DNA of 64,000 nt from Salminus brasiliensis (Eukaryota > Chordata > Actinopteri > Characiformes > Bryconidae). The notes under the pieces were generated by a model that saw only the letters and a program-made list of their open reading frames with translations, was not told the DNA's origin and did not search any database. The translations under genes and the position numbers were made by a program. Location: NCBI RefSeq assembly GCF_030463535.1, contig NC_132880.1, positions 43,713,842-43,777,841 of the forward strand, given 5' to 3'. This document shows positions 1,557 to 61,611 of the stretch, one piece after another; position 1 is the first letter of the stretch, and each line of letters begins with the position of its first letter.

Positions 1557-4018
1557 ACTTTAACACATTCTAATCTCTGACCCTCCTCCTCCCTTTCTCT
1601 CTTTAGCACACTCACTCTTAGACGCACACCCATAAATTGTCCATACTTGTCTTTGCAGCAGGCTAGTGTTATTCTGGCTGCCTCTGCTTCACCTCCTCTG
1701 GGTGTGAAAAACAGGCGAGGCCCAGGCTCCACAGAGCCTCGGTGGGCCCAATCAGCAGTCTGTTACCTGTTAGCCGATCTCGCTGTCCACTGTTAATGTC
1801 CTTTAAGGCCTGTGTAGCATGAAAGCCTGGCTGCACGCCTCCAGAGGGGGCATGTTTGATCTCCGCCTGTTCTTAAGAATGCGTTCTCCTGTGATTTAAT
1901 TAGAAAATTCTAACGATAGACCAGAATAGGCTACATGCTGAAGGAAGGGAAAACAACTAGCGCAAATAAGCAATCGTGGAGAGAGTGCGCACGGAGAAAG
2001 TAGAGCAACATCAAAACCTGACAGTAAACAAGAGGGATGAGAAACATCAAACTGTACTTCAATAAGTCATGGACTCCCTCACCAACAATGGCCCACCCCC
2101 CTACTACTGCTTACATGCAGGGATGCTGTTTAATTAGCAGGCCAGGGGTCCTCCACACTCTAACGTGACTGGCTGGCTGAGTCTCTCAGGGGGCTCAGAT
2201 AGGAAGAATGAGTCATGCACTGGTCTCGTGGGACCACTTTCATGTCCCGACTCCCGCTTAGTTCCCGCTCCCAACTCAATGCGATTATCGTCCCTAACGG
2301 GAATTCGTGAAATGCACAGCATCTTTATTTCTGAGCCGGAGGGATTTAGGACTGTTTTGTCTGCAGCAACCCCACTAGCAACATGCAGGAGATGCTAACA
2401 ACGGTGTATGCCTCTTTTCTGTCTCTTCCTGGCGTGTCCCTTAGGCCGCCTGCATCCCAGTGTTGCTCAGCAACGGTTGGGAGCTGCCCTTCTCTGATGT
2501 CATCCAGTGGAACCAGGCAGTCATCGAGGGAGACGAGAGGTTGCTGCTACAGGTAAACAGCACGCTAACAAACACTGAGAGCTGAAGTCTCTGAAGGACT
2601 GATGTCCTCATAGGACAGACCCATACATAAATCCGATATATGGCCATTTATGTTCATGTATCATAAGGCTTGGGTCTATATTTCTAAATATATTTAAATA
2701 ACGATAGGTGGCGTTGCGTGAGGATGATCGGGCTATAAATATCTACAGGGTGTACAGCGAGATTCACAGGTTGAGAAGAGGTGGAACAGTGCAGTGAGTG
2801 TCTTGTTTAATGTGTGGAAAATGGGCCACAAAGCAGATGTTCATGATTGAATTTGGGTGTGCTAAAGTTCATAGTGTGAAGTAGCTCAATCTGCAGGTGT
2901 ATGAAAGCAGATGGTCATACTGGTCTACCAGCAGTGGCAGATATGCCAGTCTACAGGAAATTGTCCTCAATCTTGAGCCACATTATATTGATAGACTGCA
3001 GGTTCCTGCTAAGTGTTATTTCAGATATTGGTGGTGAAGGACCTGCGGTGACTTCTAGAAGGAATTCTTGTCTGAAAGTGAAACGGTTTTCATTCACAAG
3101 CCGTGAAACACGCTGGCGGTCTGACGAGAATTTCTGCCACTGCTGGTAGACCTGTATGCCATGAGACTTCTATACAACTGCAGATTCAGCCACTATTTCA
3201 CACTGTGGTCTTTGCCACACCCAAATGCCAATCGTGAACACCTGCTTTGTGACCCATTTTCCACAAATCCAACAAGACACTGTTCCACCTCTTCTCAACC
3301 TATGAATCTCGCTGCACACCCTGCAGGTATTTATATCATCCTCACGCAACAATTTTTTTTGTCAATGGAGCTTAGCGTAAGTGTCATATGTGGGACACAT
3401 ATGTATAATATATGGATTATACATGTATGCAAATGTAAGTAAATGTCAGTTATATCAAATGAATATCCATTATAGTACATCTATATTTCAAATAGAATAG
3501 GACTCCCTGGAGCAGATAAACATGAACCTGTTGGCACCAACTACCTAATGTCAGACATGGGCTAGAGGAACATAAAGCCCCCCAGCATTAAGCTGTGGAG
3601 CAGTGGAGCTGTGTTCTCTGGAATGATGGATGGAACTCCATCTAATATTTTTGGGATGAGTTTTGGAGTTGGGGGTGAGGTGGGGTGGTAATCAACCAAC
3701 ATCCTGATCTCACTGACGCTGTCCCTAAATTAAATCAAATCCTCACAGCAATGCTGGGAGGAAGTCTTTCCTGCACAGTAGAGACAATTACCCCAACAAA
3801 AGCAAGATTAACTATTTTAATACCCTTGATTTCAGAAGAAACAATGAATGAGCAGGTGTCCCAATATTTTTGTCCATACATAAAAATATGGCATCTTATT
3901 GTGGCATCTTTGTGCAGTTTAATAATTAACCGTTTGTCATACTTGTCAGAAACAGACCTTGGCTAATCGGCTACATTTACAGTAAGGTCAGAACAGTTTT
4001 CCCTTTGACCTCAAAAAC

Positions 4019-14500: not shown

Positions 14501-17500
14501 TCATTTGCGCATGGTGAGCATAGCGTTGATATCCCATAGGAGGTTCCTCATCTGATCCATCAGCACCTTCATCTCTTGGTTCTTCTGCCTCACCTTCTGT
14601 GGAGGTCACACAAAGATTCAAATCAAACCACACAAGCATGCTTATGAAGGTCAATTTGTACCACATGTACTTTTACAATATATACAGTGCATTTCACAAG
14701 GAGAACCTCATTAGTAGCTAGTGCAATGAAGCTCAAATTATGTATATTGTCACAGCCAGCTGCATCACTGAGTCCATAGCCTGCCTGTCATTTATGGCAT
14801 GAAAACCTCCAACTGCTCCAAGTGGAATTTGAGAGGACCAACAATGAGGAGATTAACAAACTTTCAAAAGCCTGTATACAGCACTCTGTAATTATCAGAC
14901 TGTACTATTTACAGTCAGGGACAAAGTATTTGGACAGAGACAGTTTTTGTAATTTAACCTCTTTACCTCCGCCTTACTGGATTTGGAATTAAGCAAAGCA
15001 AACAACTGTGATTGAAGCTCCGACATCTAGCTTTAATTCAAGTGGGTTTAACAAAAAATATTGCTTTAAGCATTTAGGAATTACAGCCATTTTTACATAG
15101 TCCCTCAATTTTCACAATTTTCTCTAAAGGAATTGACCAACTGACTGATGAGCAGTTTCATAACTAGGGTTGCAGCGGTATACTGGTTTTAGGTATACCA
15201 TGGCATGTAAAAACAAATGGCCTGACCCCTGAAGACAACTAGAGGTGGATGATCGCAGAATTCTTTGCCTTGGTGAAGAAAAGCCCCTTGGATGTCTGAA
15301 GTGTACTGAGTATACAGATTCAGTTAAAGGTGGATAACGACTCAAAACATACTGCAAAAGCAACCATTCAATTTCTTTGCTTTTCATTTCTTAAAGCAAA
15401 GCAACGAAATGCTCTTAAATGGCAGATTCAGTCACCTGACCTTAACCCCACGGAGCAGCATTTCCACTGACTGAAGGCTGGAAGTTTACACTTGAGTCAC
15501 ATTTCTACGAAAAGCACACTTACAATATCTTTTTATAGTGTTTGGTTGATCATATTTAGTTGGAGAATGTTCAGAATTCACTAAAGGAGACCGACACTAT
15601 GTGCTTTTAGTGTGATGCCTTCCTCAGTGTTATTAATACACTGATTAAACCTATCAGGACTCCTTCTCTACAAGCCACATTTGCCACATGTGGAAATAAT
15701 GCTAAAGGTAAAGGTAATTTTGGTAAGTTTGGTTTTAAAAATCATGGGAAATATTACCTTCGATTAAAATAAACATGTCCATATTCTTTGCTTTTTGTGA
15801 TTAAATGTCCCAACACTTTGGACTATTAGGTTCCCACAAAAGGCTGGCATCACTGATGTTATTCTGCACAAACTCTGCACTCTGTTTATATTTCCATAAT
15901 TTTCCAGCATAAGATCTGTTATTACTGTGGCAATAATGACAATAACAATGAATGGAACAAACCTCTAAAACCTCTTGTCGGTCCTGACTCACTGCTGGAC
16001 TGCAGGGCTCAACTTTCAATGGAACCACCTCTTCTCCAGCATACGGCACCAGCTATAAGTACAAAGACAAAAATGGTCCATGATATGTAATGATCGTTGC
16101 ATTTAAAACAAACATGCCAAACAGGAAAAGGAGAATTCACATTTATTGACCAATGTAATCACAGTTGTTCACAGTGGTAGTAATACGAATCAGCTGATAT
16201 ATTATAAAGTCCTACCCCGCTAGATCTGCCCTGGCCAACCGTAAGTGCTAATATTATTGCTCACTACAGAATTCCAAACTGCCTCTAGAAGCAATATCAA
16301 CACATGGCCACTGGAGCTTCAAGAAATGGATTTCCATGGGCAATGGCCATGGCTGCCCACAAATTAAGATCACTATGTGCAATACCAAGCGTCAGTTGAA
16401 GTGGTGTAAAGCATACCGCCACTGCACTCTAAAGCAGTGGAAACGTGTTCTCCGGAGTGATGAATCCTGCGTGACTTTCTGGCAGCCTGAAGAACAAATC
16501 GGGGTTGGTAGATGCTAGAAGAACGTGCCGTCTTCTACTGCCCAGTGTCAACAGTTAATGTTTGGAGGAGGAAGGATAACGCCCTGGGGAAGACCGTCAG
16601 GATTTGGGCTCGGCCCCTTAGTTCTAGTGAAGGGTGCAGTTTCAGCACACAAACACAGTACACAACTCTATTCTTTCAAATTTGAGGTAACAGTATGAGA
16701 AAGTAGTCCCTTTCCTGTGTGACTGTCCCAAATGTACAAAGTCCAAAAAGTTACACTATATGGACTTCCTCCGGAAGCTGAGAAAGGCCCGTCTCCCTCC
16801 ACCCATCCTCACCCTCTGCTATAGGGGAACCATAGAGCGCATCCTAAGCAGCTGCATCACTGCCTGGTTTGGGACCTGCACAGCCTCTGACTGCAAGTCC
16901 CTCCAACGCATTGTGAGGACAGCTGAGAGGATCATCGGAGTCTCTCTCCCCTCAGTCATGGACATTTACACCACCCGCTGCATCCGCAAAGCAACCAGCA
17001 TTGTGGATGACTCCACCCACCCTCACACAGACTGTTCTCCCTCCTGCCATCAGGAAGAAGGTACTGCAGCATCCGGTCCAACACGACCAGACTCTGCAAC
17101 AGCTTCTTCCCCCAAGCCATCAGACTCCTCAACACAACTCAACTTCTGAACTGATGTCTTTTCTGTTACATGTACACTCTCCCTCTCTCTCCCTCTCTCT
17201 CTCTCTCTCTTTCCAACCATTTACCCCAGATAACATGGGAAGCATTTTTTGCACAAGCATTTGCACTAATAACTTTACTACCTCACTGGACTCTATTTAT
17301 TGCACATTGCACAATTTGCATACTACCGTCATTATTTATTATTCTCTGTCTGTACTGTGTTGTATTGTCTGTCCGCACTTGTTTGTTTGTGTTGCACTTG
17401 TGTCTTGTATGCACTGTCTATGTTGCACCATGGTCCTGGAGGAACGTTGTTTCGTTTCACTGTGTACTCTGTATGTAGTTGAAATGACAATAAAACCCAC

Positions 17501-19990
17501 TTGACTTGACATAAGTATGGGGACACCAGCTCATTCATCGTTTATTCAGAAAGCATATTGAAAAGATTTTCCTACTTTTTTTAAAAGTAACTGTCTAACT
17601 ACTGTCCAGATAAGGCTTTCTACTAGATTTGGAAACACTGCAGTGAGATTTTGATTGCATTCAGTGACAACTGAATGACATCTGGGATGGTCATTTAAAG
17701 GGCTAATTCAGTAAATAACACTTGTAGATGAAACCACTTAACTTTTAAAATTTAAATTATTAGTAGTGTATCAGGACCTACTGACATAGTTATAATAATT
17801 ATAAATATTATCTATAATTTCCTTTACGGTTAGTATGTTGCTACATCAATTTATTTTTCTGGAAAAACTGATTCTTTAGCCCTGTTTAACTAAAACCAAG
17901 CGAGACAGAACCTTCGTTGCCTATGTCCCTTGTCTAAGATTTCTAAAACACAGAAGCTGATTTTAGTTATTAAAGCTTATCAGACACTCAGCGCCAATGA
18001 AAACAGGTCTCACCTCAGCAGGAGACTCCTGAAGGTCAGAGGTCATCTCTACGCAGCGCTCGTACAGCAGTCGGAGTTTGCGGAAGAGGAGGGTCAACTG
18101 GCGCAGGTGCTCTTGCAGTTTGCCAAAGCGGTCCTGATACACTGCCTGACTCTGAGTCACACCGTTTGGCAACTACAGAGAATACAGAAGGCCATCAAGA
18201 CTGCAAAGCATACTCCCACAATACAACACAGCTTCCATGTGAGCCTGTTCATTAACACAGGCTGCTACATGCGTACAGCATAAAGGTGGTCCCAACCAAC
18301 AATGCAGAAAAATGCATTATGTACAAACTGTTCCAGCTGCTTCCAGTGTCTTAATAAATACATTCCTCCTAAAGCAACATTATGTATTTTTACCTTCGAA
18401 CTACAGCCACAAAGCACTGTGATGCTCCACCAGCTGCAACAGGGAGAACAGCATCACTGTCATTGCTACTCCTGGCTCAGCAGGTTGCTCACTGCACTAT
18501 GTAACTTTAGAGAGGCGGGGAGGGAAACACTAGCGAGAACTGTACATCACTGCGTATTTGTGTAAAATCCTGTGGTATTACTCCACCAGCTTAGTCCACA
18601 TGCTTCTTTCACTTTCAGTGATGGTTCTGTATCTCTCAGCTCGTTCAGAAAAACATCCTATAGTGGTGGAATATAAAATTACACTTTCTGACTGTAGGGG
18701 GAGCCCAGGAGCAAGAAATGCCAAATTTCCATAGCGTTGCTTTAAATTAGCTTCCTTAACTTCGTATTTAAGACTTCGTATTTAATATTTAACTTTCCTC
18801 TTATAAAAACTCTAGAATAAATAAATAAATAAAAATCTACAGTTAGTCCCTTAAATTTTATGTTTTAATAGTTAAATTACTAGATTTAATGTCTAATTTA
18901 ACCAGATTAAAAGTGGAGATTGTTCTCAAAGATTTTGTTTGGGGGGGGGGGCTGTTTTTCCAGTTTGCTCGCCTTTGCACAGATTTAACTGAATAATGGG
19001 AAATAAAAAATATGTCTGGTATTGTTAATGTTTAGCTGAAGAAAAGCATAAAAGGCAATAATAGCTATATAAGAAAATGCCTAAAAAAATAAAATAAAAT
19101 AACTTTTATCACCAGATTTTTTATAAATTTTTTCTTTAGGATTTCTCAGGATTCTTGTGAATCTGGCCTTAAATCTTTAAAACAGCGCTGTACCTTTAAC
19201 CATTAAAAAGTGCTGTAAACAGAGCATGCTCAGTGGGCATACCTGAAAATCTTTATATCATCACTGTCCAAAACCTTGTATCTCCAATATTCCCGTTTTA
19301 TAGAACGTGAATCTGCCAGTTCTTTATATTGTGTCCAAATTTCATGATGAGTTCAATCTTTCTACACTGACTTCCATTGAAAGTCAAGAAGACTTTTTTT
19401 TCTTCTCCCGTAAAGCTGCTGTTTAGGAGATGACGATGATCTGCTGCACTTAACTTTCATTTATGAACCACAATTTAATTTAAGATTTAACTAACAACTG
19501 GAGTAAACAAGGGTTTGACACTTTTGAGTGATGCTACAGGATGTGACACTAATATGACTCGGGTTAGGAAGGAGAGAGGTTCTCGTGCAGCTCCAGCAAA
19601 GTTGCAGCGTCCCGGGCCTGGAGTGGGAATGACGGAGACGCCATTCTCCCTATTGCAAACCTATTCAATCACAATATTCATCATAATCATTTTTATTTAA
19701 TCACAATACACTCACCTGCTCCTGTGTCTCAGAATCAGAATCTGACGCTACTTTCCAAACCATATGAATAAACTGTGAATATTATTCAGCGGAGCTACAT
19801 ACGCATAAAGCTTTTAACCCACCTGGGTGGCTCTTGTAATTTGGAAGATCTCCATAGTACGAGTGACGATGTCCTGAACTGTCTCCTGGCCAATTCGACA
19901 AAGGAAAACAGGAGAGATCTCCCTGAGAGCTCCCTGGTTTGGGCCCAGGGGGGGCTGCCCAGGGCCTGAACCTGGGGCAAGATGGGGAGG

Positions 19991-20027
<37 letters not shown>

Positions 20028-20089
20028 TGTTGAGGGGGCAACCCAACCATTCCAGGACCTGGAGCCTTTTGAGGCAGAGAAGCTGCCAT
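14501..20089 (-). CDS. med30: Mediator complex subunit 30
   Basis: MED30 is a metazoan subunit of Mediator, the nuclear coactivator that links transcription factors to RNA polymerase II. Four coding exons on the minus strand: 19823-20089, 18014-18172, 15963-16052 and 14501-14596; 203 codons plus stop. The first ends in the family signature LCRIGQETVQDIV...TRTMEIFQITRATQ. The second gives LPNGVTQSQAVYQDRFGKLQ and the coiled segment LRQLTLLFRKLRLLYERC. The third starts LVPYAGEE. The last ends RNLLWDINAMLTMRK. The protein is about 25 residues longer than the human one, largely through a glutamine run of 14 after residue 19 and the Pro/Gly stretch after it. The ATG at 20089 follows directly on a splice acceptor (TTGCAG), so a 5' exon must exist upstream. 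ext1 converges on it, as in the human 8q24 locus. Confidence 0.93.
14920..15830 (+). mobile_element. Decayed Tc1-like transposon in med30 intron
   Basis: The left end GGGACAAAGTATTTGGACAG and right end TGTCCCAACACTTTGGAC are inverted Tc1-type ends. Inside, CACCTGACCTTAACCCCACG and GAGCAGCATTTCCACTGACTG recall the C-terminal CPDLNPIE region of Tc1 transposases. It is interrupted by stops. It sits in the intron between med30 coding exons 3 and 4. Confidence 0.55.
16330..16680 (+). pseudogene. Tc1-like transposase fragment
   Basis: A 60-residue open stretch (16336-16518) contains LKQWKRVLRSDESCVTFWQP. It resembles the part of Tc1 transposases around the second catalytic Asp (W..VLWSDES). The sequence after the stop continues the GGAGGAGG...GGGGAAGACC region in a broken frame. 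It is a dead remnant in a med30 intron. Confidence 0.55.
16757..17512 (+). mobile_element. 5'-truncated non-LTR retrotransposon (LINE) 3' end
   Basis: The open stretch 16760-17149 encodes FLRKLRKARLPPPILTLCY, then SCITAWFGTCTASDCKSLQR and TAERIIGVSLPS. This is the text typical of the C terminus of fish LINE ORF2 just after the reverse transcriptase domain. A CT-rich tract (17176-17211) and a 3' UTR follow, ending AATGACAATAAAACCCACTT and GACTTGAC. The 5' end is truncated, as usual for target-primed insertion. The clade (L2/Rex-like) is inferred. It lies in the intron between med30 exons 2 and 3, same strand as ncdn. Confidence 0.75.
17512..17680 (-). repeat. Family A MITE fragment
   Basis: GTATGGGGACACCAGCTCAT followed by GGCTTTCTACTAGATTTGGA matches the terminal 170 bp of family A in reverse orientation. 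It directly abuts the LINE 3' end. Confidence 0.65.
18369..18746 (+). repeat. Family B dispersed repeat
   Basis: The copy begins CTAAAGCAACATTATGTATT and ends GTTGCTTTAAATTAG. It aligns by eye with 8846-9261. It is in the first coding intron of med30. Confidence 0.7.
18780..19440. other. AT-rich med30 intron sequence
   Basis: Only simple tracts are visible: AATA units near 18815, a G run at about 18943-18952 and A-rich stretches. AACCTTGTATCTCCAATATT at about 19273 and the following CATTGACTTCCATTGAAAGT-like text match a dispersed repeat also seen near 43270 and 48300. Confidence 0.5.
19994..20035 (-). repeat. med30: CAG/CAA tract encoding polyglutamine in MED30
   Basis: The plus strand reads mostly CTG units interrupted by TTG. 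On the coding strand this is 14 glutamines, nearly all CAG with a few CAA near the 5' side. It lies N-terminal to the conserved MED30 core. Confidence 0.9.
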
Positions 20090-20303
20090 CTGCAAGGAGA
20101 AGACAAAACTATGACTCTGATGGAGAGGAACTAAGCAGCTGTAAGTCAGTAACTCAGTAGCTGCCCTCTTCTTGTTGAAGGGGGTGAAGACCCTCCTAGC
20201 TGACAGAATCTACACAACTAATGAATGAAAACCATAAGAAAGGGTCCGCCTCGTGCTCTGCTTGTAAGCCCAAGACCCTCATCAGACCCTTACTTTCACT
20301 TAC

Positions 20304-21519: not shown

Positions 21520-24500
21520 ATGGCTGGAAGTGAAAGCGCCATCATCATGGAGGAGATCTCCTCCCAACACTGTTCAAACAGTGAGGAGCAATCCGAAGCA
21601 GATGGTTCTGGTTCTGCACCTGAATCAAACCGACTGTCCGACGCTCAGCAAGAGGTTCTGGAGCGCTGTCTGCACGCTCTCACTCATGCCAAAAATGACA
21701 GCCACATATTGGCAGCCCTTCTCCTGGTAAAGCCATTCTGTCAGCTGAGTAGTGTAACCACAACTAGTTCATTTAAATGATCACTTTCTAATGTTTTGCT
21801 TTGAGCTGGACTGATATGAATTTAGTTAATTTCATTAATTGTAAGATATACATTCTCATAACCATCATTATTGGCTAAGTTTAAAGTTAAATAGTGCTTA
21901 AAAATGTTGTCATTGTTAATAAAGGCCTGGACAATCTCCAAAAATAATTGAATAATGGAATATTTTCTTGTAAAATCTTGATTATTAATAATATCAGTAA
22001 GTTCTATGATAGTCCTCTTTTCCAACATGATGATTATCACCTCTGAAGTGTTGCAGATATCCAATAAAATCTTCCTTTCCAGGTCTGTTACAGTTTATAA
22101 CTAATTTCTGATTAAATTGGTTAATTTCCTAAATAATAGAAGTCTATATAAAGGTCAAAAACAGTATGAATATAAAACGCCTGAAACCACTGGTGGTTCA
22201 GAGGCATTAACAAGGTTAAATTTCCATAAGTGCTATTAAATTTATTGAACATTAATATGGACCAAACATGTATTAATCCAAGTTGCTGTGATTTTTTTCT
22301 GTCCTCTGTCTAGATTACGCGGTTGTGTCCAGCCAGTCAGCTTGACAGGGTGACCCTGCATCGTGTCTTCGAAGCAGTGGGTTTTAACCTCCCTGCACGC
22401 CTCCTGGTGACTGCCATCCGGAGGAGCGAGAGCTCTGGGCTCCCTCCTGAGGAGCTGCTCTCTCTGGGCACTGCTCTGTTGGCTGCTGTCAGCACAGACC
22501 TAGACATGGCCACCCACCCTCAGCTGCTGAGCACCATCCCTCTCCTCCTTGGCCTGCTGGAAAGTGGAATACCAGCCAGTCAGAAGCAAGCCCAGCACAA
22601 CACTGCCTCTCAAACTGCGTCTTCTGAGGAATCGTGTCCAAATGGAAACTTCACAGCCTGTCAGGCAGAGCAAAGCACTTCAGGAGAGGATGTTCCAGAA
22701 AGTTCCCTAGGCAATGGGGAAGAGGTCCAGCCCCCTGCCACTACACTAGACGAGGCCTTGGCTGCTGACTGCTACCAGGTTCTGAACACTGTATGTTCTC
22801 TCCCGCGTGGCCCTGACCAGCTGCTGTCTCGTGGTGCTGTACCTGCTCTGTGCAGGGCTGTGTTGAAAAAGCAGACACTCAGCCATGAGAAAGGTCTTCC
22901 ACTCTTGGCTCACCTTCTGTCCAGCAATATTAGGGAGCGGGCATGGAGCAAACACCCAGCAGAACTTCTCTCTCTTCTTGCTACCATCTCACAGAACTTT
23001 AGCCAAGCTTCAAACCAGGATCGCCTGGACATGTGCTCTAGGATACCGCAGTTCCTCCCTTTACCAACAGGAGAACCCGAGACCAAAGAGCTCAAAGATG
23101 CGGTTTCTAGTCTGTGGGCAACTTTACGTCCAATGGTCCAGGGTAAACTCAGCATAGATCATCTGGGGCCCGTTCTGGTGCTGTCTGCTTGTTTGCTGGA
23201 CTTGTGTGGCTGGGAGCCAACTGGCTCGCCAAAGTTCTGCTGTCTGTTGGTAAACCGGGCATGTGTAGAAGTGAGGATGGTTCTGGAGGAGCCACCAGGT
23301 ACACAGCTTTCTGCTCAGCAGCAGCACACACTTACTGCCTGCTATCGTATCATGGAGGCAGCCATGGAACAAGCGTGCACTCAGGGCACTATTCCCAGTC
23401 CTGCCCAGCCAGAGACAGCCATTGCTGGGTTGACTCTGCAGCAGAGCAGGCAGGTCCTCGGGGTTTTGGAGGAGGCTTTCTCTGCAGTCATTTACCACTT
23501 GCAGCAGGTGAGAGATATTTGAAAATGGCTTGAATTTAACGTGTCACCACAGTCCACATGTGACAAAATATTGACCATTAAAATATCCTGATAGTATTTA
23601 ACAATGTGATATGCATGAATTTCACAGTACACAAATATGATGCGGGTAATATGCATCCTTTTGTATACTGGCTGCTTTCATTGGCTGTTCTCTTACCGGG
23701 TGGGTAGATGGCGTTCTCTCCCCCCCTCATCATTTTTAAAAGCGATGTTGGCCAGCACTAGCGTCTGTAAGCTGGTGCGAAAGGAGGATCAACTCCATAT
23801 TAATGCCTATGGATTTAGAATGGAATGTCATAAAAGCTCCTGTAGGTGTCCAAATACTTTTGTCTACCTAATTTTCTTTGGTCACAGTTTATTACTGATT
23901 GTGTTATCCTGCATTTTTCAATACTTTTTTCAATAACGAAATGCTGTTCATATTCAATTTCAAGAGTTTCACCACTCTCGAATACAAATCACAGCTGTGT
24001 TCTTCAATTCTGTGTTTCTACAGGTTGACTCCAGCTGCTATGATGATCCCTTCCTCTTTGCCACGTTTCGATCTCTTTGCGCCTGGCTGGCTGAAGAGAC
24101 TTCGTGTCTGAGGGAGGAGGTCACTGCTCTCTTGCCCTTCCTTGTTGGCTATGCCAAACAGCACCTACAAGATAGAAAAGACAAGGGCCTTTCTGACTGG
24201 ATGTCAAAGATGTCGGTCAGCGATGGCTCACAGACGAGGAGATGGTCAGGAGAGGATGTCCTAAGGTTGGTTGAGCCAGAAAAGTCTTGCTGAACTTGAC
24301 ATGACTTTACAGGAAAGGGCTCAGCCTTAATACTACACTACATTCTGCCTGAGTAACATGATTCAAGTGTCGGTTGCTCTGGATAACAGTATCAGCCCAG
24401 TGCCATGCATGTAAATAAGCCTGCAGTGTTTACATTAGTCCAGCATTATCCCACCTCTGCACTACATCAACTACTATCTTTCTCTTTCCCTCTCAGATAT

Positions 24501-26070
24501 CTCCTTCCAGCACTGTGCCACTTGTCAGCTGAAGAGGGTCCAAGAAAGGTGCTCCTGACCCTGGACACTCCAGCCCTGCTGGTGCACTTTCTCGAGCGGG
24601 GCTGGGCAGTGCTGAGGACACAGAGTGGGAAAACTGTAAGCAGAGATCCTAGCCTGGAGACAGCCTGCTCTGCCCTGCTCAACTTTGCCGTCACAGAACC
24701 AGACAGAGTCAGGTACACATGCTGCAGAGTTCTTGTTTGCGTCACCATCAACCTAGAAACATAAGGAACTCTCAAATGGGCTTGGTTCAGTTTAGTGGAT
24801 CTACTCATTGTCCCTCGCTGCTCTGTGTGTTTGCAGGACTGATGCTTGCTTTGCTTCCCTTGAGGCAATGCTGAGTGAAGCGCTTCCTGTACTCCTTCAC
24901 AAGCCACGCCTCCTGGTGCTGACAGCCAATTGCTGCACTCTGGGTCTCATGACTGGCAGACTGAAACCAGCGTCCACCGGTATGCACACCAGGAACATGT
25001 AGAACATTAAAATGTACATTTTTCACAACATACTTGTATTTCCATTTTTACCATTTTGTCATAATTTCAGGTGTGTGTGCGTGTCCTAATGTTTGTGGAC
25101 ACCCCTTCTAATAAATGCATTCAGGTACTATAAGTTGCACCCTTTCACCTTCTGCTGAGAAAGCAGTGCAAATGTGCACACAGCGTGTCTAGTCCCTGTC
25201 GAGAAGTATTGCCAATAGAATAGGACTCTCTGGAGCAGATAAACATGAACTTATTGGCACCATGCTGTGACGTAATAATGCCAGACGTGGGCTAGAGGTG
25301 TATAAAGCCCCCCAGCATTGAGCTGTGGAGCAGTGGAAGAACTGTGTTCTCTGGAATGATGAGTGGAGCTCCATTCAAAGTTGGCGAGTTAGGAATGAGG
25401 TGGGGTGGTGATCATCCAACATCCTGACCTCACTAATGCTCTTGTCGCTGAATGCAATCATAATGCTCCTGCAAAATCTAGGAGAAAGCTTTCTTCCCTG
25501 GACAGTAGAGACAGTTACTCCAACAAAACCTGGATACCCCTTAAATAAAAATTTCCCCAACCATCAAGATACACAAACTAGGCAGGCAGGTTATTCTTAT
25601 CCACTTTATCAGGATACAACTTACTCTTATCACTGCTCCTCTGTGCCCTAGGTCCGGTGGAGTCTGGTCCACGGCGGTTCTTTTCCTGTGCGCTGCGGTT
25701 CCTTCTGGGGGCGCTGCAACCAGGTAAGAACGGGGACCAGGCACGGCTCAGCCCTGTATGGGAGTCGTGCTGGGAGGAGGTGAGCGAGCTGTGGAGGCTC
25801 GGGCTGCAGGCTCTGGGAGGCTGTGTGAGCGCACAGCCCTGGATAACGGCCCTGGCCAGAGAGGACGGCTGGCTGCAGAACACAGTTAGCCTGCTGGAGT
25901 CCAGCAGCAGCCTGCCAGACCCCCATTCTCAACAAGCTCTGGAGGAGGCCCTGTGTGCCTTCGCCCGCCAATGCCCACTCTGTCGACAAGAAATCAGCAA
26001 ATCCATGAAAAGAAATGGGAGAAGCTCTCTGCATGGCATGGCACAGTTGAGGAAGGTGCTGACAGACTGA
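21520..26070 (+). CDS. ncdn: Neurochondrin (Norbin)
   Basis: Neurochondrin is a cytosolic, membrane-associated neuronal protein. It promotes neurite growth and mGluR5 surface signalling and dampens CaMKII phosphorylation (family knowledge). Six coding exons: 21520-21726, 22314-23507, 24024-24265, 24497-24712, 24837-24979 and 25652-26070; 806 residues, frames continuous. Recognisable family segments are ERCLHALTHAKNDS, AVGFNLPARLL, CLLVNRACVEVRMVLEE, FRSLCAWLAEETSCLREEV, LLPFLVGYAKQ and RRFFSCALRFLLGAL. The leucine-rich helical build fits an armadillo-like fold. The protein is about 77 residues longer than human. Much of the excess is an acidic, Ser/Gln-rich insert at about residues 153-215 (SQTASSEESC...STSGEDVPES). 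The ATG at 21520 was chosen because the frame upstream lacks similarity; a second Met nine codons later is possible. Confidence 0.93.
23640..23900. repeat. Dispersed repeat fragments in ncdn intron 2
   Basis: GGGTGGGTAGATGGCGTTCT followed by GATGTTGGCCAGCACTAG matches the body of the SINE-type repeat at 57186-57470. GTGTCCAAATACTTTTGTCT at 23848 is a family A-like end. Confidence 0.55.
25086..25565 (+). mobile_element. Family A MITE copy in ncdn intron 5
   Basis: The copy begins CTAATGTTTGTGGACACCCC and keeps the core ATAGGACTCTCTGGAGCAGA and TGAGGTGGGGTGGTGATCAT. Its right end is replaced by AT-rich sequence. It ends about 90 bp before exon 6. Confidence 0.8.
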
Positions 26071-30453: not shown

Positions 30454-32356
30454 ATGCTCGTGCACACCTACTCGGCCATGGTGAGTCCAGTGTCTTAAAC
30501 CTGTTGGCTTGTGGAGATGAAGGTTTGCAGTCGGGGAGGTAGTTTGGATTTGGGAGAGCTGAAGGTCCATGTTCAGGTTGCTGGTCACGTTTGGAAGTTT
30601 GGGGCAGGAGTTAAAGCAGCCGACACTGCAGCAGCCGGTCTGAGTTGTAACTGCTTGGTTTATTAGATGCTCCAGCTTTAATTCTGAATTGATTTCAGCG
30701 CAGCTGGTCATCGACTGTGGTCTGACTGATTCACCCTCACACGACTGACTGTCTGACCGCTCCTCTGTTCAGTCTGGCTGAGCAGACGAGACTCCTCGTT
30801 CTTAGTGGAGTGAGCTCCGTGTGTATTAATATAATCAGATTTGCCTGAAAACACTGGGACACCTGCTGCACGAACACACACACACACACATATATATATA
30901 TACACACATACACACACATCTTCTTCACTCCTGCTTATGAACAGTACATCAGTTCTTATAAAAAGGAAACGTCAAAATAATTCGTTTTCAAATATTCAGT
31001 GTAAAAAGAAATCGGATGTTTGTCATCATAACATTTCCTCGTTTATTAATTATTACTGTGTTGATCAGATAACTTAATAATGTAAATAATGTCAATTTCA
31101 ACTGGTAAAAATGAAGCTGGCACAAAGGGAGCGAGAAGCAGTTTTGGTTCAGTAAAGAAACCTGTTTGTAAAATAGGTGCAGGAGTATGACCAACATTTT
31201 ACATGTTTAAAAAACGTTCACTTGATTTTAAACGTTTACACTCAGCACTTTTACAAAAAAATGCTCGTTTTGGACCCAAAACTGGCGTCGCTCAATTCCC
31301 TTTATTTTTAAGGACTTTAATTTATTGGACTTTAAACGGAATTCACAATGAAATCGTTTAGTTTAACCGCGCAGCGTTTTAATTCTGGTTTATGTGTAGT
31401 TTCAATTCTTATATCTGAACGTGAACAACTTATTACGTTACTTATATTTAGGTTTTATTTATTTGCCTTTATTTGCATTTTTGCTCCTTTTTTTTTTTGT
31501 TAGTTTACTTTCCTCTTTTCGGCTCGCAGTTACGCGAGACTGTTGTATTTATTCGTGAAAAAATTAAGTTACCAAAAAAAACAACATTTGGTTTCTTAAC
31601 GAACAATTTTGTAAAAGAGATATGAGCTTTGAGCGATCCTTTAGACCCTTAAAAGGTTCCCACGCATTTATTACATTTACAAAAATGATGGAACCAAAAG
31701 TTCTTCTATTGCATCGCTCAAAAAACCGTTGTAACATCTTTTATATTTTAGAAGTGTAGGTATGTATGTATGCCAGCCTGACTCTTGTTGTGCAGCTATT
31801 TATTTGTGTTTTTATTAATTTGTAATTGTGTTGTATGTTTATTATTTATTATTTTGTGACTCGCCTCTACCACTATTCAGAGCCAGTTAAACTTTCATCC
31901 AGCGTTTCTTCTGAAATCGATTTTATTTGGTGGAAATAGAGACCCCCCCCCCTCACCCCTCTGTGCTGCAGTAACATACTAAAGCAACAAGAGCATCAGC
32001 GAGGTCAGTCAGGTGCTGATGTTGGATGATTAGCCCTGCCACTCCAGATCATCCCAAAGGGTGGATGGAGCCCCATCACTCTAGAGAACCAGGTCCACTG
32101 CTCTTCAGCCCAATGCAGGGGGGCTTGTTGACGCCTGATATTGGGCATGGTGTAAACTATAGGTTCTACAAATGGTTCCTCATCTCTGTTACAAAAATGG
32201 ATCTTTACGGAACCAAATATGGTTGTTCTGTGGCATCGCTCAAAGAATTTGTAGCACCTTAGTCCCTGTAGTCCCATTAATCTGTCTGGATACTTTTGGA
32301 CGTAGAGAATTGACCAGTGTGGTTTGTAGAGTAAGCATTTATCGTTGTGTGTGTGT

Positions 32357-35400: not shown

Positions 35401-36340
35401 AATGCCAACGTCAGTTTGCCGCAGAATAGTGACGACAGTTGGTTCTAAGTTGTGACGTTAAGTCGCGGTTCTGACACCACAACCGTCGCATGCCAACGTC
35501 AGATTGACATAAAGCCCCAACATCTTCTAAACGCCATAATGATAATGTCCACACAACATGACATTCTAACCAATGTTAGATGTTAATATGTTGCTGGTTT
35601 TAAGTCATGATGTTAAGTAGCCAAACTTCGACGTCTGTTTAACGTTAGAGGTTGATATCAACCTAATGTTGTTTTTTGATGGATGTGTGACTTCGAGCTC
35701 CAGCCAGAATTCAACATCTGTACAACGTTGGGTTTTGACATCAAGTTTAATTTTCAGCTAAAATTCCAGCTGTCCAACGTCTATCTGACGTCAGATAGCT
35801 CTACATACATTCACCATATTCTACCTGAAAGTCAAAGGTTCAGTCTCTAAGTCCTGACCCAGACTTCATAATCACACACTCTTAGAAACAAAGGTGCTAC
35901 AAACGGTTCTTTGAGTGATGCCCTAGAAGAACCATCGTTGGTTCCATAAAGAACTGTGAGTGTGAAGAACCTTTAAATTAGTAAAGACCTTTACATCAAC
36001 TCCATTAAAAATCTTTTATAAGGTTCTTCACAGAATTATCTCTTTTACAAAACTGGTTCTTTATGGAACCAAAAGTGGTTCTTCCATGGAATCGCTCAAA
36101 GAACCCTATGCAGCTTTGTGCTTAAGAGTGCAGTCCTAATCCAACAGTGAGAGCCAGGTAAAGGGTTAAAGTTCTGAGGAGCTTTGGGTAACAAACCACT
36201 GCTGTTCTTCTGTTCATCAGGGGATGGAAGAGGCCTCCTCTTTGGGGATCCTGGACCACTCTGTCATCAAGAAAGGTAAGAGACCACTGGAGAAGACAGT
36301 GTGTTGGGTGGGGGGGCAGAAAGGACAGCATGCATCATGC

Positions 36341-36378
<38 letters not shown>

Positions 36379-38179
36379 ATAGAAGAAGGAAAATGGTAGG
36401 GAAGGCTTTCGACTACATATTGGAGCATTGCTGAAAGAGCGTTAGTGAGGTCAGGAGGTTGGGGGATCAGCACCCCAGCTCATCCTCAACTCCCCAGCTC
36501 ATCCTCAACTCCCCAGCTCATCCTCAACTCCCCAGCTCATCCTCAACACCCCACCTCATCCTCAACTCCCCAGCTCATCCTCAACACCACACCTCATCCT
36601 CAACTCCCCAGGTCATCCTCAACACCCCAGATCATCCTTAACTCCCCAGCTCATCCTCAACACCCCACCTCATCCTCAACTCCCCAGCTCATCCTCAACT
36701 CCCCAGCTCATCCTCAACACCCCAGCTCATCCTCAACTCCCCAACTCATCCTCAACACCCCAGCTCATCCTCAACTCCCCAGCTCATCCTCAACTCCCCA
36801 CCTCATCCTCAACTCCCCAGCTCATCCTCAACTCCCCAGCTCATCCTCAACTCCCCAGCTCATCTTCAACACCCCACCTCATCCTCAACACCCCAGCTCA
36901 TCCTCAACTCCCCAAGTCATCCTCAACACCCCACCTCATCCTCAACTCCCCAGCTCATCCTCAACACCCCAGCTCATCCTCAACTCCCCAAGTCATCCTC
37001 AACACCCCACCTCATCCTCAACTCCCCAGCTCATCCTCAACACCCCACCTCATCCTCAACTCCCCAGCTCATCCTCAACACCCCAGCTCATCCTCAACTC
37101 CCCAAGTCATCCTCAACACCCCACCTCATCCTCAACTCCCCAGCTCATCCTCAACACCCCAGCTCATCCTCAACACCCCAGCTCATCCTCAACTCCCCAA
37201 GTCATCCTCAACTCCCCACCTCATCCTCAACACCCCAGCTCATCCTCAACTCCCCAGCTCATCCTCAACTCCCCAAGTCATCCTCAACACCCCAGCTCAT
37301 CCTCAACTCCCCACCTCATCCTCAACACCCCAGCTCATCCTCAACTCCCCACCTCATCCTCAACTCCCCAGCTCATCCTCAACTCCCCACCTCATCCTCA
37401 ACTCCCCAGCTCATCCTCAACTCCCCAGCTCATCCTCAACTCCCCAGCTCATCTTCAACACCCCACCTCATCCTCAACACCCCAGCTCATCCTCAACTCC
37501 CCAAGTCATCCTCAACACCCCACCTCATCCTCAACTCCCCAGCTCATCCTCAACACCCCAGCTCATCCTCAACTCCCCAAGTCATCCTCAACACCCCACC
37601 TCATCCTCAACTCCCCAGCTCATCCTCAACACCCCACCTCATCCTCAACTCCCCAGCTCATCCTCAACACCCCAGCTCATCCTCAACTCCCCAAGTCATC
37701 CTCAACACCCCACCTCATCCTCAACTCCCCAGCTCATCCTCAACACCCCAGCTCATCCTCAACACCCCAGCTCATCCTCAACTCCCCAAGTCATCCTCAA
37801 CTCCCCACCTCATCCTCAACACCCCAGCTCATCCTCAACTCCCCAGCTCATCCTCAACTCCCCAAGTCATCCTCAACACCCCAGCTCATCCTCAACTCCC
37901 CACCTCATCCTCAACTCCCCACCTCATCCTCAACACCCCAGCTCATCCTCAACTCCCCAGCTCATCCTCAACTCCCCACCTCATCCTCAACACCCCAGCT
38001 CATCCTCAACACCCCAGCTCATCCCAAAAGTCATGCCAGAGAACACAGGAGTTTCACTGCTCAATGCTGCTCAATGTAGCTGAATGCATTCATTAAAAGG
38101 AGTGTCCACAAACATTTGGACATATAGTGTATATAGGGGAACCAAATTGTATGGTACCTCATTCCCCAGTGGGTGTTAT

Positions 38180-39083: not shown

Positions 39084-42000
39084 GCGTTTGCATTCGGTAT
39101 TCCTGTCCTTTTGGGGACTTTAGTACAGGGACTGTACTTCAAGCTAGATATAATCTTAACCTCAGAAAGTGAAGTGGCTTTAAACTCGGGTTCTATGACC
39201 CCTAACAATAGTGGAACCCTTTTTGGTGCTATCAGGAACCAAGTTCTTTTGGGAACTATCATAAAGAAGAATTGTTTAATCAGGCAAAAAACATTTAACC
39301 TTTAAATGGATCTTTGAGTTGGTTCTTTGATGCATAACAATAGAGGAACCCGATTAGGTGCTATCTAGAACAATTTCAAAGGTTTTTGAAGAACCATAAT
39401 AACCAGGCAAAAACATTGAAGAACCATTTAGGCTGGGTTCTATACTCAGTATTATTATAATGCAGAACCCTTGAATAGCTCTGTTATTTAGGAGTGCATA
39501 GCTGTGTTTGTTAACGGTGTCCATCACCCTGAGGACATTCGGTCCCCACAGAGTGTTAAATACACACACAGACTACAGATATTTGTAGTATTGCCTTTGT
39601 GGGGTATATGTCCCTGCTGTGTGTGCTGTTAGCTAAAATGATGGATTCCTAGCATTGAAAGTTGGACCGACGTTAAGTTGTAGTTATGGTTACTTAACAC
39701 CATGACTTCAAACCAGCAACACATCAACGTCCAACAACGTTACAATTTCACGTTGTGTGGGCAGTAATGTTTTGACACTTATGGCGCACACCTCACAACT
39801 ATTTTATGCCACAATGACGTTAGCATGCAACGTTTGGAAGACGTTGGATTGTGGTTCACTGTGTGTGTTCACTCCACTGTGTCAATTATCACAACTTGAA
39901 AGCAACATAATATCAACGTCAGCTGTCGTCACTATTCTGCAGCAAATTCTTCGTTGGCTTTAACCGTTGTGCTGACACTGATTTTGGGTCACCTGAGGTC
40001 ACGACCTACATTCAAACAGATAACAACGTCTATCAACGCTGGTGGCCAATCAGGGTGGCTTTAAAATCTTAACAAACGAGCTCTTTGATTAGAAGCATGG
40101 ACTTCTCGAGACCTCTGAAGGTGTCCTTCAAGTACTGTAAGTTGTAAGGTGGAGCCTTCATGAGCCTTAGGTGCCCATAACCCTGCCACAGGTATACAGG
40201 TTGTCCTTTCTAGGACCAGTATTGGTAGGTACTGACCACGATCTGCCTGACCTAGTCGCCTAGCCAACCACTGTCGATAAAGGTAATCATGAGAGTGGTA
40301 TTAATGTAATGGCAGATTGGTGAATTGAAAAATACCTAACGTCTCCAGTCATATTGTTCATGCTTTTCATCATCCTTTTGATATGTTTGGTCCCCACGAA
40401 GCGCCCAGTACACACTGACACACACACACACTGACACACACACACACATACACACCAGAGAATGGGGAAGATTGGGAGCATTGCTGGTTTTTTGAATACA
40501 GAGCCTCTGAGCCCCTTCAGTCAAGCAAACTGAATTGTTGTGGAAAATCCTGCCCACACAGCCGTGAACATGGAACTGTGGGATTAGGCGGCTACATGCA
40601 CTAATCTACTGAACCCAAATTAAGGGTTTAAAGGATGATGTAACAAAGATGCTCCAGCTCAAATGAAAAGCCAATGGGGCTCACATCTCCATGTCAGCGC
40701 TAATCATTATTAGAGGCTGAATAGAGTTTAAGTGTTTTAAGTCTTAATCATTTTTTCAGAGAGGAATCTTGGCTTGGTGAATGTCATTTCACATCCTGAC
40801 AGACTTAAAAAGAGTATATAATCAATGTAGTCCTCATTTACTGCCGTTATAGGCCTATATACACAGATTAGCCTTAGCATTAAATCCCCTGACATGGGGT
40901 GAATAACACTGATTGTCTGGTGGCACAGTGGCACCACTTCAAGTTGATGCATTGAAAGCATGAAAAATGAGGAACGTGCAATCTGAGAGACTTTGTGTAT
41001 TGCTGGTATGCAGTGGTCAATACCTACCAAAAGTGCTCAGAGGAAGGACATCCCATCAACCACAGATGGGGTCACAGGCTCCTAGGGCTCAATGAAGCAT
41101 GTGGGAAGTGAGGATTGGCCCGTCTGGTCCGATCCCACAGAAGAGCTACTGTAACACAAATGGCTGAGTTAGTTAAGTAAGGTTAATGCTGGGCTATGTC
41201 TTGTGCAGTGCAGTACAGGGAGCACCTACACAATATAAGGCAGGTTGGTGGTTTTAATGTTATGGCTAATCAGTGTATATACGCTATTGGAAACCTGGCC
41301 ATAAATCACATTTTTTTTAAATGGCCCATAACTCAAACAAAAGTCATCAACCATAACATACACTATATAGCCAAATGTTTGTGGACATCCAATCTTATAA
41401 ATGCATTCAGCTACTTTAAGTTGCACCCATTGCTGACAGAGAGGTACAAATGCACACACACACACAGCTTGTCTAGTCCCTGTAGAGAAGTATTGCCAAT
41501 AGAATAGATGCATTGGCACCCTGCCTAATGCCAGGCATGGGTTAGAGGGGTATAAAGCCCCCCAGCATTGAGCTGTGTTCTCTGGAATGATGGTTGGTAC
41601 TCCATCCAATACTTTTGGGTGATGTTGGGGAGTTTTGGGATGAGGTGGGGTGGTGATTATCCAACATCCTGACCTCACTAATGCTTGTGTTGCTCAATGC
41701 AATCAAATCCTCACAGCAATGCTCCTTCTCAAACCTAGTAGACTCTATTTTCTTGGGCAGTAGAGACAGTTACTCCAAGAAAAGCAAGATACACTTGATT
41801 TTAGAAGATACAAAGAATGAGCAGGTGTCCCAATACTTTTGTCCATATTGTGCATTTATATCTATGGATATAGAAAGGTAATAAAACACCAAGATCAACA
41901 CTAGTGAGACTTGATCTGCCACCAACCCAGACGAGAGAAGATCTACTGATGCTGCATCACATGAAACTGCAGCACTTCCTTCACTAGCACACAAGTTGTC

Positions 42001-43894
42001 CTACTTTTCATTGCCTCTTGCATTTTTCATAAAAGCACCAGAATAACAGCAAAAAGCAGAGCTCTTCTGCCTAACATGAGCCTAACGTGTGCGCCCCCTC
42101 TCCTTTTCTCTCCTCCCTCTCTCTCCAGTTCCCATCCCCTCCAAGCTGAACGGCTCAGCTCTGTCCGTCCTGTCCCTGGGTAAGGACGGCCTGGGCCTGG
42201 GTGGCGTTTCTAACCCCGGTGAAGTTTTCTGCTCCGTTCCTGGACGCCTGTCTCTCCTCAGCTCCACATCCAAGTACAAGGTGACGGTGGGAGAGGTCCA
42301 GAGGAGGCTGAGCCCACCTGAGTGCCTCAACGCCTCATTGTTGGGAGGAGTGCTGCGGAGGTGAGTGAAGAGAGGAGGCACTCTGACTGGGACTGTGGAT
42401 CAGACAGTGGAGATTGACTGTCTAAACTGTACCATTTTGAGAGCCAAACATTAGGTGACGTAAATAAACATGAACATGATGAACACGTGAGGAAAATCTA
42501 GAGAAAATTCATACGCTCAAGAATGGATCACTGAATCACTGAAACGTACAGATGGGAAGAAAGGAGCTACTGACTGAACCGCTGAGCTACAGAGACAACA
42601 TACAGCATATTAAAGCAATAGATGAAGAGACACGAGCTGAAGGCCGGCCCTGCTGTTATTTCACAATAGCAACCAACCTTACGTTTTTCTTTATGCTACA
42701 GATCGAAAAATAAATTAAGTAAGAAATAAATGAAATAAATAAAATGAGCCGTGAACGTAGCATTTCATGTTTTAATGACAGCATATCCTTCCGCCAAATT
42801 AGCTATAGTTCCTAAACAAGCAGCTTGTTGCTCGCTAAGTCACAGCAACGAACTCCACTCAGCCTGCTGTTCCTTCTCCATCGACCAACCAATTAAAGTC
42901 ACAGTTTTTACAGTAATGTACTAATTAACGTTAATGTTTTACGTTAATGCTGCTGTTTACTAATATACTTAACTGTGTTCAGCGGAGTGATACAGTGTTT
43001 GTGTGTGTGTGTGTGTGGGGGGGGGGGGGGGGCAAACGCACTGTTAAGGCAAAATACTAGCACGTTTTGACCGCTTGTCAGCCAATCAGCTTGTGTGGTT
43101 GGACCTAGCTAGAGATTGAACAGTGGTTGGACAGAGATGCGTTATCCTGTGTGGTTCATAAATCAGAACGACAATAAAATACTGAGGACATTTAAGGTCA
43201 CTTTGTTCTCAGTGCCTTTACACCAACCTGCAAAGTAGGCCCAACAAATCTTTTGTGTTATTAGTACAAACCTTGTATCTCCATTTTAACTGTTTTTTCA
43301 CTTTTTGACTGTATTTGAATCTGGATCATATTTGAATCTAACAGTTTTTCAGTTTTTCGATGAATTGACCAATAGTATCACTTTTCACATCAACTTCTAT
43401 TGGAAGATACAGGAAGATTTCTCCTTCTACTGTGAAGTGACATTTTGGAGATACCAGAATTTTGCGTGACTGCAACCATATTGTTTTAAGTGGTGATATG
43501 AAATAACTACATTTTGGGAGGAGGAACATGCCTGAAGCCCCATCTCTACTTTGCTCACATGTCTACAGCAAAACTTTTGCATCCTTCCACCACCCCGTCT
43601 CCTCACTTTTCCCCTGTCTGATCTCTCATTGCTGTCTCCTGTCACTTATCAGAGGAGGGAGTAGAAGCCACTTAAACTCCAGCTCAATGTTCTCAGCGTT
43701 CTCCCCCCTCCCCTCTTACAGTCTCCTCACAAATCATCATCACATGCTGATGACCTGGTCCAAACTAGCGAAAGGACTACTTTTTTTCATCAGTTCTCTA
43801 ATGAGCAGGGTTTTTTGTAACTATTAGCAATATGAGCAGTTGCATAAGGCCAGCAAGCCTTAGGACACAATATGAGCAGTTTATTATCATTAAT

Positions 43895-44438: not shown

Positions 44439-45540
44439 TTTAGTGTGCTAATCCTCTCTCTGTCTGTTTCCTCAGAGCCAAGTCAAAGAATGGTGGCCGC
44501 TGCCTCCGCGAACGCCTGGAGAAGATCGGCCTGAACCTGCCTGCCGGCCGCCGCAAAGCAGCTAACGTCACACTCCTCACAGCACTGGTGGAAGGTACGT
44601 AGACACACTCACACCAAACACACACACACACACACACACAGAAAGGGAAAGATAACAGCAGTCATTTTAACATGCTTCTCAGTGCTGCAAACACTTTGTC
44701 ACGAACCCTCAGCTGCATTCCCAACTCTAAATTCTCCTGTTTTCCCTTTCATTAAGGTGAAGCGGTGCACCTGGCCAGAGACTTTGGCTATGTGTGTGAG
44801 ACAGAGTTCCCAGCCAGGGCCACAGCAGAGTACCTATGCAGGCAGAGTGATCCGGACCAGCTGCCCACACGGCGGAGCATGCTGCTGGCCACCAAGTAAG
44901 TTCTAGCTTCATTCAAATTTAGCCTTAAAAGTGAATTTCAGGTAAAAAAAAAAGGAAGATTTTCCCAGTTTTATTCCCAAATGCATTCCAAAAGTAGTTG
45001 ATCACCTTCGACATACACTACATGACAAAAGCATTGAGCAACACAAGCATTAGTAAGGGCAGGATATTGGATGATCACCACCTCACCTCATCCCTGATTC
45101 CCAAACTCACTCAAGTATCGGATTGAGCACCAAACACTGCTCCACAGCTCAATGTTGGGGTGCTTTATACCCCTCTGGCATACACCTGACATTAGGCATG
45201 GTGTTAATAGGTCCATGTTTATCTGCTCCAGAGAGTCCTATTCTATTGGCAATACTGCACTACTGCTCTACAGTGACTAGACAAGCTGTGTGTGTTTGTG
45301 TGCATTCGCACATCTGTGTAAGCAATAGCTGAATTTATTAGAAGGGGTGTCCACATACTTTTGGACATATAATGTATAGGATTTTTTTAATGTGATTTCT
45401 GGCTGAACCCAATGATTGGGTTTTCCTAACTTCATGGAATATTAGGAACATGGAAGGAATGTGGTTGACCACTGAGGATAGCTAACAACAATGCAACAGT
45501 TCCATCAGAAAGCCATGCTTGGTGCCCCAGCCTCACTAAA

Positions 45541-50620: not shown

Positions 50621-50922
50621 ATGCTCATGTTTATAGCTGTGTACATGTGCCAATTTTGCACATGGCCCATTTCCCCGCATGGTTGATGGACCATGATGGA
50701 GATTACTCCTACAGGACCGTTGACATTGACATTCTAAATCTATAGGCATTAATATGGAGCTGCTCCCCCTTTTGCAGCTATAACAGCTTCTACAAGACTG
50801 TGTCTGTGAGAAGTTTTGCTCATTCATCCAGATAAACACTTGTAGGATCAAGGAACTTTGGACAAGGGAGCCTGGCTCGCAGTCCCTGTTCAGGTTCATC
50901 CCTAGGGTGTTTAATGGAGTTG

Positions 50923-50974
50923 AACTCAGGGGATCTGTGCAGGCCAGTCAGGTTCTTCCACATCAGACTCACCT
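50923..50974 (+). repeat. 52 bp direct repeat, left of the insertion
   Basis: The repeat begins AACTCAGGGGATCTGTGCAG and ends CATCAGACTCACCT. The identical sequence follows the insertion at 51305-51356. Confidence 0.9.
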
Positions 50975-51304
50975 ATATATCACAGCTGGTAGCACCAGCA
51001 GACAATGTAGCAAGAGTTTGCTAATGCATGAATTCAGGGGGCGGAGCTTCAGAAGGGGAAACTGAAATTCAGTGAAATTCATTGAGTTCAACAGTCCTTC
51101 TCCAGAATCACATACAGCACCTTTAAGCCACTTTTGAGCCAAAAGCAAGTGCTTTTAACAATCATTTTGAAAAGAAAAGTCAAGTCTAAGGAACCATTGC
51201 GAAGCTGAGCATGCAAATCGATGCTGTCATACAAAAACCTTGTATCTCCATTTTTGTTGTTTTTCACTTTTTGACATATTTCAAATCTGACGGTTGTCCT
51301 TTAC
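50974..51304 (+). repeat. 330 bp segment, inserted copy
   Basis: The copy differs from 48042-48371 at about three positions (one extra G, and two C/T or G/A changes). It interrupts the Tc1-like remnant. Confidence 0.9.
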
Positions 51305-51356
51305 AACTCAGGGGATCTGTGCAGGCCAGTCAGGTTCTTCCACATCAGACTCACCT
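51305..51356 (+). repeat. 52 bp direct repeat, right of the insertion
   Basis: It is an exact second copy of 50923-50974. After it the Tc1-like sequence continues (AACCAGGTTTCC). Confidence 0.9.
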
Positions 51357-52129
51357 AACCAGGTTTCCCTTAATTGGAATTAAAGGGCCTATAAGCCCTG
51401 AGAAAACCCCATAGCATTATCCCTCCTCCACCAAATGTGAGAGTTGCAGGTACAATGCAGTCAGACAGGTAACATTCTCCCGGCATTCGCCAAACCCAGA
51501 CTCGTTCGTGAGGAGTGCCAGACATCACTTCATCACCCCACAGAACACATTTCCACTGCTCCAGAGTCCAGTGGTGGTGTGCTGAACACCACTCCACTCC
51601 ATGCTTGGCATTGTGCATGGTGATGAAAGACATCACACAAGCATTCAGCTACTCTGCCATTGAAACCCATGCTATGAAGCTCTGAGCACAGTTTTCATGC
51701 TGATGTTAATGTTAGAGGTTTGGAACTGCAGTTATCGAGTCAGCAGACCATTGGTAACTTTTATGCACTATGCTTATCAGTACTTGATAAGCTCTGATCC
51801 CACTCTGCAACTTGGTCATTACGTCTTATGTGGTCTGACAAATCATAGCTGCTGATTCCTAAATGCTTCCACTGTTCGATAATACCACTCACAGTTCATG
51901 GTGGAAGATCTTCCCTAAATAGAACACCTGTATTCAGTGATTAAAAGGTGTGTCCTAATACTTTTGTCCATATAGTGTACTCCTTATTTAGGTGATTTTA
52001 ATCGATTTTCAATGTTTTAAGTATAGTGATGTCATGGCAGAGGCTTTAAAATTGATACCGGGACAGAGAGAACAGTTAGACATAAAAACAAGAATCAAAA
52101 CACAAGGCACTCTTAACAGGGGGTAATGT

Positions 52130-52199: not shown

Positions 52200-61611
<9,412 letters not shown>

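Follow-up and report, generated by a model that had tools for sequence, protein, structure and literature searches.

The 64-kb window, that is, the whole stretch of DNA that was analyzed, carries in this order a neurochondrin match (PF05536, E 1.9e-53, 22314-23522), an AP-2 exon (42086-42364; PF03299, E 1.9e-20; AP-2-beta in the PDB, E 4.7e-27), and, on the minus strand, a proteasome beta type-2 exon (52831-53124, E 2.9e-29). A probable small AP-2 exon on the plus strand, at 36221-36275, is followed by GT and presumably belongs to AP-2, given a resemblance judged by eye; if it does, the minisatellite described below, which starts 190 bp behind it, lies in the intron directly behind this small exon. 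The array thus probably sits in an AP-2 intron, with the transposable element that surrounds it in antisense orientation. By synteny, the AP-2 gene is probably tfap2e. Elsewhere in the window, an open frame at 19814-20209 on the minus strand encodes some 13 consecutive glutamines, followed by a stretch that resembles Mediator subunit 30.

The minisatellite occupies 36466-38023 and is read here on the minus strand, which is the strand of the surrounding miniature inverted-repeat element (MITE). It consists of exactly 82 units of 19 bp, in perfect register and with zero indels, in agreement with an earlier note on this DNA that had spoken of about 82 such units. Twelve unit types occur, and the top five, GATGAGCTGGGGAGTTGAG (25 units), GATGAGCTGGGGTGTTGAG (20), GATGACTTGGGGAGTTGAG (10), GATGAGGTGGGGTGTTGAG (10) and GATGAGGTGGGGAGTTGAG (9), make up 74 of the 82 units. 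Variation in units 1-81 is found almost entirely at unit positions 6, 7 and 13; rarely, it affects position 10 (one unit), 17 (one unit) or 19 (two units). TRF calls a 38-bp period at 36473-38024, with 40.8 copies; a regular dimer is nevertheless absent, since a unit equals the next but one in no more than 17.5% of comparisons. Three forward frames stay open from stop to stop across 36400-38096, over 559, 544 and 484 codons, which is what might suggest that the array is a coding repeat. Such openness is, however, automatic, because the 19-bp unit is stop-free when three units are read through; in addition, Pfam yields nothing for the longest frame and the array lies inside a transposon relic, so that we give a coding role next to no credence. 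The array is most likely functionless, a by-product of repeat instability.

Both flanks of the array align, across both borders, to one element of a dispersed family, termed family A, in reverse orientation, as the earlier note had proposed. For the comparison, an nhmmer profile was made of six other copies (3475-3820, 5805-6312, 10411-10885, 25082-25551, 41362-41854, and 45371-45031 on the minus strand); a fragment at 17684-17563 (minus strand), which starts behind the site corresponding to the array, was excluded. The profile matched 38127-38065 with model positions 1-63 (E 1.4e-12), 38069-37987 with 229-321 (E 1.6e-06), and 36505-36401 with 283-413 (E 4e-17; envelope to 36388), all on the minus strand and in the correct order relative to the model; smaller matches that look like element ends also occur elsewhere. 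The flanks together with two units scored 189 against the family A consensus, while the best of 200 single-base shuffles scored 47.8. The 5' part of the host copy, at 38024-38129 on the minus strand, comprises TA and the 5' end, the element start, internal deletions, and then the MITE's own TTTTGG, through which unit 1 is entered (blastn to the consensus, 56/64). At the other end, unit 82 runs into the MITE's own sequence, and a blastn match to the consensus crosses this border (44/50); the 3' part that follows, at 36388-36465 on the same strand, was defined by nhmmer, blastn and TRF. MITE sequence thus stands directly at both array borders, as expected from growth in place.

The host copy is damaged, having internal deletions and no 3' end. 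On its 5' side, the 285 bp of the consensus are reduced to about 103 bp, which leaves about 180 bp of internal sequence absent, and roughly 24 bp more are lacking behind the array. Clear similarity stops near consensus position 416 of 520, about 100 bp short of the 3' end, so that this end is missing. A (CA)n tract called by TRF at 36342-36376 lies near the breakpoint. The TA that precedes the 5' end of this copy was recognized by eye and may be one half of a TA target-site duplication, the 3' end being missing.

Judged by its sequence, family A looks like a MITE derived from a Tc1/mariner element: it is short and retains, internally, part of a Tc1-like transposase gene. A decayed Tc1-like element at 50720-51979 on the minus strand, whose 3' limit was set by eye, shares two parts with family A: its 5' end matches model positions 1-56 (E 8.6e-04), and an internal stretch of its transposase gene at 51628-51512 (minus strand) matches positions 174-269 (E 9.2e-08). 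In this relic, an open frame at 51648-51370 has a match to the transposase of Sleeping Beauty (5cr4, E 9.4e-07) and none in Pfam or NCBIfam. The DNA of a second fragment, 16252-16518, matches the same model segment (174-269) weakly (E 7.9e-04), and the fragment has no match in Pfam, NCBIfam or the structure-sequence library used for 5cr4. Possible terminal inverted repeats, imperfect and about 30-36 bp long, are seen in two copies that have both ends, with local scores of 11 and 17; a third copy, 3475-3820, which has no 5' end, scored 9. Two side observations concern Tc1-like sequences. Within the relic, GTGAGTCTGATGTGGAAGAACCTGACTGGCCTGCACAGATCCCCTGAGTT (about 50 bp) was recognized by eye in two places, about 51355-51305 and 50972-50921 on the minus strand, roughly 330 bp apart; either this stretch was duplicated or a very long direct repeat brackets an insertion. 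At 23780-23870 on the plus strand, a fragment resembles, again by eye, a Tc1-like 3' end, but from a different subfamily.

At the site that corresponds to the array, the family A consensus reads TTTTGGGATGAGTTGGGGAGTTAGGGATGAGGTGGGGTGGTGATCATCC, which holds two imperfect 19-bp units, hereafter the seed. The earlier note had placed about one and a half units in ordinary copies; the motif is indeed at the same place, but it amounts to two imperfect units. When the consensus is compared with itself without gaps over 19 bp, at lags of 15-25, the top match lies at the seed, at lag 19, with 16/19 identities, and every self-match of at least 13 in the whole consensus over these lags falls at the seed with lag 19. 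A self-match of 16 was attained by 1/300 Markov shuffles of the whole consensus and, when an 80-bp seed piece was used, by 0/2000 permutations and 1/2000 Markov shuffles. By eye, and given how Tc1 transposases end, the seed may be the remainder of the transposase gene just behind the last catalytic residue; the family A profile did not match the Tc1-like relic at the seed position.

The seed is present in other copies of the window, which were assessed by alignment, profile and seed test. The second unit is recognizable in all six profile copies, with 13-16 of 19 positions matching the array unit. For the first unit, the stretch before the second unit was gap-aligned to the array unit and compared with 2000 random 24-mers of the window, and it proved clear in four of the six copies, for which at most one of the 2000 was as good. 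These are 5805-6312, 41362-41854 (where the period is 20), 10411-10885 (where the seed is two bases shorter) and 3475-3820 (where the 5' part of the element is missing), all on the plus strand. The first unit is marginal and hence doubtful in 45031-45371 on the minus strand (37 of 2000 random 24-mers as good), which has a clear second unit, and it is indistinguishable from chance (239 of 2000) in 25082-25551 on the plus strand, where it is mostly deleted and only the second unit is left. TRF lists the seed of one ordinary copy only, at 41613-41650 within 41362-41854. A single 19-mer score was rejected as sole proof of the seed in the weakest copies because background 19-mers, taken from the window outside the elements on both strands, match the array unit at 12/19 in 92 cases, at 13 in 21 and at 14 in one; the second unit of the weakest copy was accepted because of its homologous position and not from its score alone. 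Two units are the maximum among the six profile copies, and no array of intermediate size, between 2 and 82 units, was found within the 64 kb.

A related element at 31982-32157 on the minus strand holds one unit, with a 13-bp gap opposite the second unit in the output of both aligners, so that the one-, two- and 82-unit states are present in a single window. In this relative, an imperfect short repeat, GGGATGATC and GGGCTAATC, is seen by eye with a spacing of 19 bp, which is what a first duplication mediated by short repeats on either side would lead one to expect. Two observations speak against a simple, single duplication of 19 bp, namely, that the extra stretch compared with the one-unit relative is 13 bp and that the Tc1-like relic has, by eye, nearly the same length at the seed stretch. 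Part of the second unit could therefore be reshaped older sequence. In the opposite direction of change, a tandem repeat that already existed would have been captured by the MITE, and the dimers elsewhere would be its shrunken remains. This has a precedent in Xenopus, where, as one review relates (PMC12628747), capture was proposed for a Tc1/mariner MITE. It seems very improbable here, since the seed site is common to the one-unit relative and since the ordinary copies, which diverge by 15-22% from the consensus, never exceed two units.

The two units of the seed, here called proto-units, differ at 6 of 19 positions in the register of the array (7, 13, 15, 17, 18 and 19), and two of the three frequently variable sites of the array, 7 and 13, are among them, while position 6 is not, both proto-units having G there. 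At position 7, G is present in 22 of 81 units, and at position 13, A and T are present in 47 and 34 of 81, respectively; these are the bases of the proto-units. The chance that two of three variable sites coincide in this way is about 0.22 by our own arithmetic, and the shared sites therefore lend weak support to inheritance from the proto-units. The idea that positions 7 and 13 are linked because whole proto-units were inherited was also considered and rejected: G at position 7 occurs with T at position 13 in 13 units and with A in 9, and because of both combinations there is no clean inheritance of the proto-units. CT at positions 6-7 is paired with A at position 13 in 10 of 10 units. The C at position 6 is new in the array, and the C at position 7, which is the commonest base there and was found by eye in only one ordinary copy (5805), is perhaps new as well.

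The order of unit types within the array bears on how it grew. A stretch of 563 bp from 37915 to 37353 on the minus strand, delimited by unit comparison, recurs without one difference 589 bp, i.e. 31 units, further on, at 36764-37326 as positioned from this lag. The copy includes 29 consecutive whole units that are identical at lag 31, where 1000 shuffles of unit order gave at most 8, and it also includes a rare unit type found only at units 30 and 61. Growth therefore included a block duplication. Perfect identity over 563 bp could also arise in a mis-joined assembly, in which case the block copy or the array length would be an artifact and the true array shorter or longer. We consider this rather unlikely, as block duplications are ordinary in minisatellites, and the array ends, the seed and the flanks are independent of the block copy in any case. 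Apart from edge unit 82, all five singleton types are found in units 68-76 (36580-36750, minus strand; units 68, 73, 74, 75 and 76), and the chance that all five fall within the last 14 of 81 units is 7.8e-05 in a test made post hoc. This clustering suggests that one end of the array is old and quiet and that the remainder has been turned over. Unequal exchange, or repair in which copies are misaligned, would account for the block copying, and slippage for small steps. Secondary structure did not emerge as a driver in the one 152-nt piece tried, which, folded on each strand, does no better than its shuffles (z -0.89 and -0.20).

Taken together, these observations favor a local birth of the minisatellite, in which the two-unit seed of family A expanded to 82 units inside one copy, and we assign this reading a probability of about 0.88. 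The earlier note had likewise derived the array from an internal duplication in a transposon, a proposal borne out by the flanks and by the seed in other copies. Family A would have arisen as a non-autonomous Tc1/mariner-type element by internal deletion from a Tc1-like transposon, and a short stretch duplicated in its lineage would have produced the imperfect 19-bp dimer that most copies in the window keep. One copy would then have inserted in antisense orientation, probably in the AP-2 intron, where the two units, through misalignment during copying or through exchange, may have given rise to 82, a block of 31 units being duplicated at least once on the way. The step from 2 to 82 units is one that we infer from the borders and the shared sequence; the order of events and the agent, be it slippage or unequal exchange, are likewise proposals, and the expansion may have preceded or followed the loss of the 3' end. 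Alternatively, the array might have expanded first in another copy and been transposed here afterward, which would predict sister loci with long arrays. This course of events appears unlikely, given that 0/6 other profile copies in the window exceed two units and that the present copy, without its 3' end, is now no mobile source, though it may have been one before that loss.

The birth of a minisatellite in a dispersed element fits a published class. PMC6947457 reviews minisatellites that arose within Alu, B1 and LTR elements, together with the Haber-Louis model, in which a short duplication arises between short repeats and then expands. As described there, those cases share with the present one a short duplication in a dispersed element that grows by slippage or unequal exchange, but they concern retroelements, whereas a DNA transposon is involved here. 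MITEs, too, are known to have given rise to satellites, and one such MITE is of the Tc1/mariner type and comes from Xenopus (PMC12628747 and PMC9659126). This element, miDNA4 of Xenopus tropicalis (Scalvenzi and Pollet 2014), is, in these accounts, a non-autonomous Tc1/mariner element whose internal satellite may consist of one monomer or form an array that differs in length between copies, and in these respects it resembles family A. It differs in that, according to the one review (PMC12628747), capture of an older repeat was suggested for it, while family A has an imperfect 19-bp dimer as seed and only one of the seven copies in the window is expanded. The Xstir repeats on a Xenopus MITE (Hikosaka and Kawahara 2004, as cited in PMC12628747) are likewise tandem repeats from internal MITE sequence, but belong to another element, and a stem-and-loop mechanism between two neighboring elements was proposed for them. 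The BrickBuilt MITE of Porphyromonas gingivalis (PMC4596501) also has a minisatellite, with a 23-bp unit, within a MITE, but it is bacterial, and its forms are reported to be present 19 times in one strain. Among the matches listed for MITE- or Tc1-born minisatellites, the titles and abstract openings mention neither this locus nor a MITE minisatellite of fish, and the sole match to sequence letters of the element in literature text concerns, by its title and abstract opening, a zebrafish connexin. The unit, the MITE core, its 5' end and the first seed unit had 0 exact matches in viral contigs, a result uninformative on fish genomes. The locus thus belongs with the published transposon- and MITE-born minisatellites and satellites, and the example itself is new.

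Many minisatellites have lost the trace of their beginning. In the present case we know from where the expansion set out, because the one-, two- and 82-unit states occur within 64 kb with matching borders, and it is this side-by-side presence of three states of the same site that is distinctive, the locus alone being an added example of its class. We raise, tentatively and as less probable than not, the idea that the family A dimer is a nursery: if the family is numerous, many copies would each carry a ready-made 19-bp seed of two units, giving the genome many independent chances of minisatellite birth. If that were true, unit counts between 2 and 82 would be found across loci, and the rate and the trigger of the first expansion steps would become measurable. 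Counting more copies of family A genome-wide could allow the first steps of repeat growth to be measured.
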